DNA of 6,241 nt from positions 1 through 6,241 of the forward strand of contig JACRIR010000084.1 in assembly GCA_016215705.1 (NCBI GenBank), written 5' to 3'. The translations under genes and the position numbers were made by a program. Positions 339 to 6,241 of the stretch are shown here, piece after piece. A model generated the notes under the pieces. That model saw nothing but the letters and a program-made list of their open reading frames with translations. It did not search any database and was not told the DNA's origin. The first letter of the stretch is position 1. Each line of letters begins with the position of its first letter. This DNA is from Candidatus Poribacteria bacterium (GTDB lineage Bacteria > Abyssobacteria > SURF-5).

Positions 339-1451
339 TTACGCTGGGAGCAGAATTAGATCGACTTCCCCTTCCTTCGGCAACTTATCACCGAAAAGGC
401 GCGTTTGAGTCGGGCGGCGAAACGGCCTCGCTCTTTGAGTCAATTTCTTGTCAGGGAAAACTTTTTGCAAAACCTCCTTCGTGGTGTCGTAGGTAGTCTT
501 ACGCATGTCGGTACGAACGTATATGACGCTGTCGGCCGAAAGCAAGCCAGCCGCTTTACAAAAAACCTGCTCAAGCATCTCACGATACTTTTCCTGGTCT
601 GCAAATCTACCTCGATGTCGACCGTTCAGTCTCGAGGGAAGAGGTTTACCGCCGAGCAACCAAAGTCGTAGCCATTGGTCGTAATGATAGTTTGTGACAC
701 CGCAATAAGGAGGTGAAGTAAACAGCAACCGTGGGGGAGGCGCGTCAAGTGAGCGAATTGAATGGTGAAGGTCTGGTAGCAGATGGACACTATCGCCAAG
801 ATAAACTTGGCTCGGACTTAACTTGGGTCGCCCCTTTGCATAGCGCCAGTTGAGTCGTTTGCGTAAGAACTGTATCGGCTCAACGTCTGGTGGTAGTAGT
901 TTGTGCTCACGCCACCAACGAACTGCATAATCAGGCGACATGGACTTCGTTTGGCGCATCTGGTTTGACAATGAGGCATCCCGTTTACCATGCAGGTTAA
1001 TCAATAGAATTGCCATTGCTGTCCAATCAACTGCCCGACGGCTCCAATCTAGCTCACTTCGGGCTGCACAAAGGAATCTTCGCACATTGGCTGTAAAGCA
1101 GCGATGGTAAAACTCCGGCAGCTCGGCCGCGGCTCGCCGAAAATTTGGCGCGATACGACTCAATTCGGATAGACGCTGTTCCACAGCCTTAAGAGTGGCA
1201 GGACGCAATTTGGCGCGAGCATAAACCCAGCCCACGGGGTTCAGTTCAATTCCAATACCGCACCGTCCGTTGATTGCCGCACTGAATACCGCTGTACCAC
1301 GCCCCGCAAATGGGTCGAGAACTGTGTCCCCGGGCTGAGTGTATTTTTCAATCACGCCGTCCGCAAAGGTAGTGGGAAACATCGCATAATAAGGTCCCAC
1401 ACCAGCCCATCGGCTGGCAGCAGTGTCGTATTTCCCTTTCAAATTTTTCAT
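339..1451 (-). CDS. DNA methyltransferase, SPPY (N4-cytosine/N6-adenine) type, in a HerA-NurA operon
   Basis: A 370-residue AdoMet-dependent DNA amino-methyltransferase. The AdoMet-binding half comes first: YYAMFPTTF (21-29, motif X-like), DPFAGRGT (46-53, motif I) and GIGIELNP (65-72, motif II with acidic E69). A linker of about 145 residues rich in Trp and Arg follows (about 73-215) and may hold target recognition. The catalytic half comes last: YLGDS (217-221) and TSPPY (245-249, motif IV). SPPY more often marks N4-cytosine enzymes than N6-adenine ones, but the target base is not proven. The motif order is that of a permuted two-half enzyme, not the classical beta order (IV before I). I chose ATG at 1451 because it lies 4 bases after the nurA stop; the longer in-frame ATG at 1562 would put 111 bases inside nurA. 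Translation is probably coupled, since no clear ribosome binding site is seen. No restriction endonuclease or specificity subunit adjoins it. Confidence 0.88.
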   Translation of the reverse strand: MKNLKGKYDTAASRWAGVGPYYAMFPTTFADGVIEKYTQPGDTVLDPFAGRGTAVFSAAINGRCGIGIELNPVGWVYARAKLRPATLKAVEQRLSELSRIAPNFRRAAAELPEFYHRCFTANVRRFLCAARSELDWSRRAVDWTAMAILLINLHGKRDASLSNQMRQTKSMSPDYAVRWWREHKLLPPDVEPIQFLRKRLNWRYAKGRPKLSPSQVYLGDSVHLLPDLHHSIRSLDAPPPRLLFTSPPYCGVTNYHYDQWLRLWLLGGKPLPSRLNGRHRGRFADQEKYREMLEQVFCKAAGLLSADSVIYVRTDMRKTTYDTTKEVLQKVFPDKKLTQRARPFRRPTQTRLFGDKLPKEGEVDLILLPA

Positions 1452-1455
1452 CGAA

Positions 1456-2805
1456 CTACCGTTGACGCATGAGGGCGCGCGCAAGCTGTTGGAGGACTTT
1501 GGCACCCAAATGGAGCGGAATCGCGGCTTGTGCATGAGCCGAAACGAGAGGTGATAAAGCATTCGGGTAGCGCGACGTCACAAGTTTGTCCAAGAGAGCG
1601 CAGGCAGTTCCAAACTGCGGATACAGCGAAACATTATCGGACGTGATGTTGTCTTGGTCTTCGGTGAGGAAAGGGATGCTCGCCACAATGCGAGCGCCAC
1701 TCTTCGTTTTATAAAAGAACTTCCTGCCAAAGTAAGTATCCTCTCCGTAACGCTTGGTGCTGTCCGAAAAAATCACCCTTTCCTTGATGTATCGGTCAGT
1801 AAGAAGCATGTACGTGCCGGAAGGAAAATAAGCCTCCCCCGTCTCGGTTCGGTCGATTTCCTCGAAGTGTGTAACAAAATTGCCGGTCTTTTCGACGCCC
1901 AGAATTACAAGGTCATTCCCGGTCTTTTGGCGGACTTGGGTGTTGAGCCGCTTCAGTTCAGTATTGATAGCCGCACTCAACCATGCAGGCGGCCCGAAGA
2001 CAGCGAGTGGCCCATCGAGGAAGAAGGCGAGTTTTCCAACCTTGTCAAGCCAGCCGCGCCGTTCAAAACACCGCAAGAGGTGGATAAGAAGAATTCGCTC
2101 CCACAATTGCATCACCAACCCAAACGCCTCACCGTTCGTCCCGATGTCGAGGAATCGTTCGTGGATTCGGAGCGCGTCCGTGGAATAAATCGGACGACGA
2201 AGCTCGCAGTCACATGACGTGACGCCTGGCTGAACGTTGAAATGATGACTGCATCCCTCGTGGTCATATGGACACACCTGCGGCCGATTCTGAGGTTTGA
2301 GAGCCAACAAAGCCTCGTAGGTCTCAAGCAATGGCGATCGGTCTTCCTCATCTACGATCACATCGTGGAGCACATCAAAAACAGCTTCTCGGAAAGAGTC
2401 GCGGGCCGATTTGTGGTCGCGTGTCACCACGTTGCTGCCGGGCAGGGCGGCATCCACAGTTGCAGCCTCCTCCGTTCGGCGGAATTCAACGGGATCTATC
2501 GGACGTTGTTCATCGAGCCGATCTACTTCCTTTAAGTTCAGCAGCACACTAGCAACAGTGCAGTACCCAACTTTTGCTCCGGGGTAGCCGTTTTTAACAT
2601 CAACTTCTGCGTAGCTCCCGTCGATGGCTACCGTAAATTCTGGCAACGATTGTGGGGGTGGCGGCGGAATGGAAGGCTTTGCCAAAGTCACGCTGGAAGC
2701 TGTCTGAAAAACCCGAGCGCGTCGCAAAAGCTGCTGGACCCTCTCCGTCTCCGCAATGCGCCGTAAGGAACGATAGCCAGCGAACTCTCCCTCGTATGGC
2801 ATCAT
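1456..2805 (-). CDS. nurA: NurA-type nuclease with an internal Cys/His cluster
   Basis: A 449-residue protein with the NurA nuclease layout. AIDGSY (60-65, metal-ligand D62) begins the fold, [10 protein letters not shown] (262-271, D264) gives the second conserved Asp, VEKTG (304-308) supplies a conserved Lys region, and [17 protein letters not shown] (413-429) is the characteristic C-terminal block with H423. NurA proteins are manganese-dependent nucleases that bind the HerA ring and resect or degrade DNA ends. Between the catalytic blocks lies a Cys/His group (C178, H182, C185, H187/H188, C198, C200) that could bind zinc and is not part of the minimal archaeal NurA. It is also longer than archaeal NurA, which is usually around 340-450 aa. 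A proline run (47-51) precedes the fold. ATG at 2805 overlaps the herA stop as ATGA, and a second ATG follows immediately at 2802. The family call is strong; substrate and polarity are unknown. Confidence 0.85.
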
Positions 2806-4994
2806 TTACCTACTGCAATCGTACTTGCCTGAATGGAAAACCGCTCGACTTGGATAGGAACAACGTATGGGTTTGAGAGCGTCTTGACGCGAATGAAACC
2901 ACGGTCCTGCGCCCGCAGGATGCTGGCTTCGAAATCGGCGAAGTCATAGAACTTTTTCAGCTCCTTTGTTTCGTCCGTATTGTTCAAGTGACCGATAAAC
3001 CAGTTAGCGGTATTTCGCAGGATGTTTTTCTGAATCGAACTGACTTCCTGCGTCGCGTAAACAAGACCGATGTGGTACTTCGCGCCTTCTTTGGCGGTGC
3101 GGACCCAAATATCCTTCGTATCCAGTTCACTTGAAGGCGGAAGAATGTTGTGCGCCTCTTCGACGTAAACCAGAATGTCAGGAGGCATTTGCGCGTTGCG
3201 AAATTTGTTCCGATTGTTTTCGAAAATCCGACTAATGACTCGATCCGCCGAAGCCTTGTTCAGGTCTGGGTCACCGCTTGATTGATCTACGATGACCAAC
3301 CGACCTGCTTCGAGGTGTTTGTAAATATCCTCAGCGTAATCGGTCGAGGTACTGTGGGTGTGCTGCTCCTTCACGCGCCCAATGAGACGTGAGCCGTTCG
3401 GGTAAGCAAACAGTTCGAGAACCTTTTTAAGATCATCATCCGCCCAAGAGCCGGAACTGCTTTTTTGGATGTAATTGCTGTCGAAAGCCACGAATCCAGA
3501 TGCTGTATCTTTAATGAATTCTCTCAATATCTGGCAAGCTTGAGCGATTTCTGCCCAACTCGGTTGCGGCTTCTCGATAATGATCGCGCAACGCGAATAG
3601 GCTGTCGGATCGTCTCCCACCGGTTGCTTCAATGCTTCAATCAATTCTTTGTTGAATAAGCCTCGCGTTTGCGGCTGTAGACTTGCGGGAGGCGTCAAAC
3701 CCGCTTTGAACAGCAGCGCCCGATAACAAAGCACCCGCCGATTGTGCCTGGTCATGGCCGACCGGTCATTTGGATCGGGCGGCTCAAAGTTAATATCACG
3801 AAAATTTGAAATGTATTTTGTCGCGTCATTGGCTAATGCGGTGTTGATAATCTCCTTCCCAATCTGAAGATTCGCTTCCACGTAGAAGTTTAGCAACATC
3901 AAATTACGGCCTGGATCGTTCGGGTGCGCTGTAATGCCGTAGGTTACGACGTCTTGTTTCAATTCCGTGTGCTTGGCTGTCGGTCCGCAAGCCCACACAT
4001 TCTTAATCGCATTCGGGTTCTCACTCTTGGTGTCGGCGTCTTGCGTGTTTTCGTTCGCGTACTCGCCATTTGGGTCAAAAACAACTTGCCCAATCCGTTT
4101 CGTAGGGTTTGCCATCCAGCGCAGCTCGAAAATCGACTTTAAAATGATCTTTGTGGTATTCGACTTCCCCGTGCGGGTCATGCCAAACAGAGCGGTTTTC
4201 TGCCCAAGCAAATCAGTAGGCGTCATCGCGACTGCTACACTCGCAATTTGTTGAAACGGCCGATGAGTTGAGGCATATCGCACTTGCCCGATGTTGACGA
4301 GCAGACCGCCGCTTTCGGCGTGAGTTCTCGGGTCGCGATAGTTGGCGATTCGGGCAAGCATTTCTCCGCGTGGCTTGAAAACTTTTAGCCCACGGTTTGG
4401 ATAGTAATTGCTCAAATCGGAGCCGAAGGTTAGTTCGTAGCGTGGATGGATGTCGTCGCCAAGATTGGCAATGTAAAACGTTCCAAGCACACGGCACTGG
4501 ACCCCGGCGTAGCTCAACAAGTGATGCGTTGTTGGGTCCATCACGTCCTTGTGGTCCCAGCTTTTCGCAATCTCACCGCTAACGCGCTGGGCGTTTTCAA
4601 CACGAACTCTCAGGGCTTCTTGTGCATTCGGCAAATCCGCGTGGTCAAGTACACGAAGCAGGATGACTGACGCGTCCTCTTCACGAACATCAATAACTTT
4701 GGACGGCACAATGCGAGTAGCAACGAGGAACGAAAGCGCCGGAATGCCGCCAACTTTCTGGCGGTGGTGGTCGTGGATTTGAACTAATGCCTGCTCGTAA
4801 CCGAGTGAGAACACCTCCCCAAGATACGAGGCTTCATCTACTAGTCCGGCCAGGGTTTTTGCAGCAGCCGATAGCCCTGCATCGAGCTGAGGTTCGTCGA
4901 GTTGCTCCCCGACGGTTGATATGACGTTTACCATAAACCTTGTTTCCGTAGACTGGTTAATCTCGGCAATTTGTAAATTCACCGCCCCCTTCAA
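2802..4994 (-). CDS. herA: HerA-type hexameric DNA translocase ATPase (HAS-barrel plus FtsK/HerA-like ATPase)
   Basis: A 730-residue P-loop motor. The N-terminal part resembles a HAS-barrel ([18 protein letters not shown], 7-24, and the beta-rich region to about 255). The ATPase core shows Walker [11 protein letters not shown] (271-280, K277), VVFDPNGEY (304-312, a HerA hallmark), Walker [11 protein letters not shown] (607-616, E612/E613), ATQEVSSI (647-654, sensor-like) and a C-terminal [16 protein letters not shown] (660-675), typical of HerA. HerA hexamers thread double-stranded DNA and drive the partner nuclease NurA, which is the next gene and overlaps the stop by 4 bases. About 295 residues lie between the DPNGEY motif and Walker B, so the core carries a sizeable helical insertion. 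The start is uncertain: TTG at 4994 (AAGAG about 6 bases upstream) or GTG at 4982 keeps the HAS-barrel strand; the ATG at 4934 would cut into it and is less likely despite its AAGG. Confidence 0.9.
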
Positions 4995-5184: not shown

Positions 5185-5605
<421 letters not shown>

Positions 5606-5846
5606 GTTTGGTAGCCTTTCGAATTGAGATGATCCGGATTTTATCTCCGCGTTCGGTGTACGTAACGGAGACCACGACACCGTGAAGCAACCCGAGCGAA
5701 ACAAAACGCTGTTCCTGATATGACTCGCGAGTATCTTCCGCCGTTACGGTATACCCCGCGAATATCCTGCCGGCATCGGCAAAATCAATACCGTGTTTCT
5801 TGAGGTTTGCTCGGCGTTTCCTCTCGTCCCAGGTGAACACGCAAGA

Positions 5847-6079: not shown

Positions 6080-6241
<162 letters not shown>

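Follow-up and report, generated by a model that had tools for sequence, protein, structure and literature searches.

A HerA-type translocase, a NurA-type nuclease and a DNA methyltransferase are encoded by three consecutive genes on a bacterial contig, and we consider it probable that together they form a restriction–modification-like immune system, in which end-loaded HerA–NurA would degrade DNA while methylated sites would spare the host. Within the closest HerA clade (the best 80 of 350 loci), the methyltransferase is an obligate partner of HerA–NurA. The closest solved relative is TdpAB, a translocase and nuclease that leaves DNA with phosphorothioate marks intact, and the locus is best read as the base-methylation counterpart of Tdp. 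A literature search, with preprints and most subscription journals outside it, found no account of a defence role in which HerA and NurA are joined by a methyltransferase, and the system is apparently unnamed in the literature covered. If correct, this reading would add a compact and very widely distributed class of systems that tell self from non-self DNA, and would tie HerA–NurA, which has long been viewed in terms of repair, to immunity; it would also make testable the way in which a ring translocase senses a chemical mark as it moves.

Organization of the three-gene unit

The window, i.e. the whole stretch of DNA that was analysed (6,241 nucleotides), is an entire 6.2-kb contig. ORF calls place three leftward genes on it: herA (4934–2802), nurA (2805–1456) and a DNA methyltransferase gene (1451–339). 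The herA stop and the nurA start share the sequence ATGA at 2802–2805, a 4-base overlap, and the nurA stop at 1456 is separated by a 4-base gap from the methyltransferase ATG at 1451–1449. All three products match Pfam families above the curated cut-offs (HerA/DUF87, 7.6e-11; NurA, 5e-15; N6_N4_Mtase, 5.8e-15). This is the layout of three leftward genes, ATGA overlap and 4-base gap given in the initial annotation. Its span of 339–4994 does contain the three genes, but the HerA start is more likely to be the ATG at 4934 than the TTG at 4994, because both the alignment and L016, a relative with 96% identity, start at that position. The features are as follows.

2802–4934 (ORF opens at 4994), minus strand: HerA/TdpA-like hexameric DNA translocase, about 710 aa, by Pfam DUF87 and TdpA matches
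4161–4184, minus strand: HerA Walker A motif GMTRTGKS, almost without variation among 82 relatives
1456–2805, minus strand: NurA/TdpB-like nuclease, 449 aa, by Pfam NurA, AlphaFold2 model and conservation
2206–2274, minus strand: Cys-rich, zinc-ribbon-like segment within NurA, by Cys counts in 71 relatives
339–1451, minus strand: DNA methyltransferase, 370 aa, by Pfam N6_N4_Mtase, AlphaFold2 model and conservation
1293–1316, minus strand: methyltransferase motif I, DPFAGRGT, by sequence and conservation
705–719, minus strand: methyltransferase motif IV, TSPPY, by sequence and conservation

Conservation of the set

An alignment-based HerA scan of 84,980 species genomes confirmed 350 relatives. 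We read the best 80 of these 350 loci, called ORFs on all of them and searched the ORFs with the window proteins. Homology search found HerA, NurA and the methyltransferase together in 73 of the 80, the methyltransferase lying after nurA in 72 and before herA in one (L073). A further locus (L051) retains only the start of the methyltransferase at its contig end (PYYAMFP, DPFAGRGT), which brings the total to 74. The other six (L020, L021, L040, L069, L085 and L095) are cut off by contig ends within herA or nurA or shortly beyond one of them. In most of the loci read, nurA overlaps the methyltransferase gene by 4 bases, a conserved translational coupling, and the gene arrangement is not due to chance. 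The choice of loci by HerA similarity could bias the co-occurrence count; this concern is countered by a NurA profile search of 386 genomes, in which the only three carriers all have the methyltransferase. Distances computed for the three proteins co-vary (Mantel r 0.87–0.89, with shared descent left in), which supports co-evolution of the methyltransferase with the other two. The coupled operon proposed at the outset is thus a conserved unit, and the search across genomes that had been suggested for it finds the three genes kept together, with contig ends truncating the other six loci. Two loci show insertions: in a Prevotellaceae bin, herA and nurA are separated by a GIY-YIG/DUF4357 gene (L070, 9028–9870), and in Deferribacter an IS200/IS605 element with TnpB splits herA (L006, 4141–7939).

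The expectation that the methyltransferase adjoins herA–nurA in relatives holds for these closest loci, but not for more distant ones: HerA–NurA pairs at about 35% identity, on three cyanobacterial plasmids and on a viral contig (L097), have no detected adjoining methyltransferase. The HerA–NurA machine can therefore exist without one. All three genes are carried by archaeal plasmids and by Deferribacter plasmids. A Vibrio temperate phage carries a related HerA–NurA beside its integrase, with HerA split into two ORFs and a methyltransferase on the opposite strand (L007, 1309–5751); the NurA–methyltransferase portion of this set recurs on two related viral contigs (one of them L010, 1–2282, likewise with the methyltransferase on the opposite strand). 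The phage methyltransferase is Dam-like (PHROG_56), with the motifs RYPGGK and DPPY read by eye, and does not belong to the family of the window enzyme. Since a related phage NurA is thus paired with a different methyltransferase, the nuclease–methyltransferase pairing may have arisen twice. Scans of viral contigs with the window NurA alone and with the window methyltransferase alone gave no matches. Another viral contig with a 69%-identical HerA (L009) was dropped as phage evidence, its neighbours having no PHROG match and its viral label being unproven.

The window methyltransferase family also occurs on plasmids without HerA–NurA, where its neighbour is a second methyltransferase or a large AAA helicase-like protein. 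The latter arrangement is seen on plasmids of Bradyrhizobium and Rhizobium (L131, 4965–10324; L132, 4959–10309): the relatives there face an AAA helicase-like protein of 1,414–1,416 aa, which in Bradyrhizobium resembles DpdJ and MkoA; this is a possible further methyltransferase-paired system.

HerA and NurA resemble TdpA and TdpB

The closest solved relative of the window HerA is TdpA (E 1e-17 from the single sequence, 1.5e-20 from a profile); other HerAs score far less well. For NurA, sequence profiles found no match among solved structures, and fold comparison alone found one. The AlphaFold2 model (pLDDT 88.8) best matches the TdpB chain 8wfd_G (Z 18.9 over 295 residues, rmsd 4.1; Foldseek E 1.8e-7), compared with Z 12.6 for Sulfolobus NurA and 12.1 for Deinococcus NurA. 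The TdpAB or TdpABC structures are PDB 8wet, 8wfd and 8y1k. PADLOC, run on the three genes, matched no NurA model and gave partial HerA matches of modest score. In the alignment of relatives, D62 of NurA is invariant and D264 nearly so, and both fit an active RNase H-like site. The Cys-rich segment has at least four Cys residues in 38 of 71 relatives and one Cys in the other 33. These results support the view that HerA is homologous to the TdpA hexamer and NurA to the TdpB dimer, with the catalytic motifs kept in both.

Judged by its motif rather than by superposition, D62 appears to be the counterpart of D49 of the Thermococcus kodakarensis NurA, a residue mutated in a study of that enzyme (PMC12977600). 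HerA–NurA first became known as end-resection machinery, from work on archaea and Deinococcus. The T. kodakarensis complex cuts both strands at duplex ends, circular duplex is left uncut by its NurA, and the authors suggested an antiviral role (PMC12977600).

A conserved recognition-like region in the methyltransferase

Motif I of the methyltransferase precedes TSPPY, and a conserved recognition-like region lies between them. The AlphaFold2 model (pLDDT 91.8) has E. coli Dam as its first Foldseek match; as the structure comparison returned generic methyltransferase folds and Dam alone, it does not separate m4C from m6A. The TSPPY motif is commoner in m4C enzymes, which suggests an m4C product. 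The catalytic motifs of both the methyltransferase and the nuclease are kept, in line with the activities assigned to them in the initial annotation.

In most restriction–modification families the target-recognition region varies. From their position between the catalytic halves, rather than from a DNA-bound structure, we infer that residues 134–210 form the DNA-recognition region. Their median pairwise identity is 0.545, compared with 0.63 in the N-terminal catalytic part, 0.52 in the TSPPY part and 0.28–0.36 in the linkers. This strong conservation, which the initial annotation overlooked, therefore suggests one fixed recognition sequence across the family and predicts one methylation motif common to distant phyla.

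Distribution and mobility

The hosts of the closest HerA loci (the best 80 of 350) belong to at least 26 phyla of bacteria and archaea. Cultured carriers include Mucilaginibacter X5P1, Flavobacterium endophyticum DSM 29537, Chryseobacterium oleae DSM 25575 and Psychrobacter lutiphocae DSM 21542. On the HerA tree there are 36 changes of phylum label, against a minimum of 25 and a shuffled mean of 50, and well-supported small clades mix phyla; some hosts are metagenome bins, and binning error may account for part of this mixing. Presence is patchy: in three small phyla, that of the window among them, carriers number 1 of 3, 1 of 5 and 1 of 16 genomes. These patterns, together with the co-varying distances of the three proteins, are consistent with transfer of the genes between phyla as a block. 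The candidate system is thus both conserved and mobile: close relatives from its own phylum lack it, and prophages and plasmids carry related sets.

Known defence genes, whose presence nearby had been proposed as a check, do occur in the flanks. With PADLOC, 150 flanking proteins match 166 models and 145 control proteins from the same genomes match 50; these counts are of models rather than of proteins or genes, the control set covers a small number of regions, and generic matches such as PD-T4-6 kinases are among the hits. The flanking matches include a type II endonuclease, type II and type III methyltransferases, SspB, Cas12k and MADS proteins. This neighbourhood is no more than supportive of the defence reading.

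Proposed mechanism and alternatives

In the proposed mechanism, HerA would load on free double-stranded DNA ends, such as those exposed by phage DNA injection or by breakage of a plasmid, and would pump the duplex into the NurA dimer, which would cut both strands. The host chromosome would be marked by the methyltransferase at a short, invariant sequence, and methylated sites would stall or release HerA–NurA, sparing host ends. Such protection would be analogous to that of phosphorothioates, which are thought to shield DNA from TdpAB. The relationship to Tdp and the end cutting of the T. kodakarensis complex are the grounds on which we infer end-loading degradation stopped by methylated sites. 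The mark would be read during translocation from an end, in place of cutting at a site, which would explain why the unit has no specificity subunit or site-specific endonuclease. Because methyl groups lie in the DNA grooves and the sulfur of phosphorothioates in the backbone, reading of the mark would have to differ from that by TdpAB. A bolder version, which we hold only tentatively and think somewhat doubtful, is that the methylated sequence is universal and acts as a Chi-like stop mark for end-loading HerA–NurA throughout an unnamed bacterial and archaeal immune system; a mark read in translocation and not at the cut site would mean that the recognition sequence cannot diversify.

Several other explanations were weighed. 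The unit could act like type II restriction, with HerA–NurA, by way of the Cys-rich segment of NurA, or an associated factor cutting an unmethylated site that the methyltransferase blocks. The strict pairing of methyltransferase and nuclease (in the best 80 of 350 HerA loci) and the zinc-ribbon-like segment within NurA would fit, as would a Psychrobacter plasmid on which a methyltransferase relative adjoins another methyltransferase and a gene without assigned identity in a layout resembling type II. However, about half of the NurA family has lost the Cys residues, DNA is fed from the ends in solved HerA–NurA complexes and T. kodakarensis NurA leaves circular duplex uncut (PMC12977600), and we regard site-directed restriction as unlikely. 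Slightly less likely still is a module that serves mainly a mobile element such as a prophage, plasmid or integrated island, by excluding competitors or stabilizing its carrier, with cell defence as a by-product. The related set at the integrase end of the Vibrio phage, the copies on plasmids and the position of the window unit beside BrnTA and repeated 3'-end fragments of hppA favour it, but many copies have no obvious element on their contig (about 7 kb viewed on each side), and the molecular mechanism would be unchanged.

An operon for DNA repair or end resection, in which the methyltransferase merely regulates or marks replicated DNA, would suit the setting in which HerA–NurA was first described (PMC12977600). 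It is nevertheless very improbable, given that the unit is missing from other sampled members of its own phylum and of two further phyla, that phyla are scattered on the HerA tree, that the NurA model is nearer to TdpB than to canonical NurA and that plasmids and temperate phages carry the unit.

Comparison with known systems

With TdpABC, the unit shares a TdpA-type translocase and a TdpB-type nuclease, the closest solved relatives of its HerA and NurA, an expected hexamer and nuclease dimer, and a DNA modification that marks self, here predicted. The pair is accompanied, in the window and in 74 of the best 80 of 350 loci, by a gene of the N6_N4_Mtase family rather than by the TdpC phosphorothioate gene; self would be marked by base methylation from an operon-encoded methyltransferase. 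Furthermore, the window NurA is about 90 aa longer, with its Cys-rich segment, and pairwise sequence similarity is low. The initial annotation had found no certain match to a named system; this stands for the literature covered, although TdpAB as the closest solved relative had been missed.

The canonical HerA–NurA pairs of Sulfolobus, Thermococcus and Deinococcus have the same folds, catalytic motifs and adjacent genes, but are chromosomal, have been studied mainly in end resection, are not described with a methyltransferase and match the window NurA model less well (Z 10–13 versus 18.9). Such a pair is kept vertically on the chromosome, whereas the present unit is absent from sampled relatives and scattered across phyla. 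In HerA-DUF4297 and SIR2-HerA (Nezha), a HerA hexamer likewise drives a separate effector in anti-phage defence, but the effector is DUF4297 or SIR2 instead of NurA and there is no DNA modification gene. Type II restriction–modification also pairs a modification methyltransferase with a nuclease (a linkage found in the best 80 of 350 HerA loci) and moves as a unit; it relies on a site-specific endonuclease, whereas the window unit has an ATP-driven translocase and a non-specific nuclease, with no sequence-specific nuclease domain recognized in its three genes, and a methyltransferase whose recognition-like region is conserved. BREX, DISARM and MADS combine a methyltransferase with ATPase-driven interference, and mad8 of MADS is HerA-like; the present unit has three genes, without PglZ, BrxC, DrmA/B/C or other MADS genes. 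PADLOC and Pfam matched none of PglZ, BrxC, DrmA, DrmB and DrmC in the three genes, and the unit is of three genes across relatives, in line with the initial annotation, which saw no phospholipase D or helicase of the BREX/DISARM kind.

Contig context

The first 5 kb of the window are 92% identical to L016, which is binned as Gammaproteobacteria RBG_16_51_14. Two 3'-end fragments of hppA in the window are closer to the hppA of that bin than to the full-length hppA of the window's own genome, and the GC content is 0.526 in the window, 0.52 in the bin and 0.564 in another contig of its own genome. The window contig may have been misbinned or recently acquired; the three-gene system itself is unaffected by possible misbinning. 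The two hppA fragments (5186–5301 and 6081–6241) are 95% alike and flank a BrnT toxin and BrnA antitoxin pair (5327–5840, by Pfam) just upstream of herA, and a further hppA 3'-end fragment abuts the HerA unit in L016 (1–400). This looks like repeated integration at the hppA 3' end, which is possibly an attachment site. At the left contig end (22–276), the window encodes an AbrB/MazE-like antitoxin with no toxin in view, a region to which L016 also aligns.
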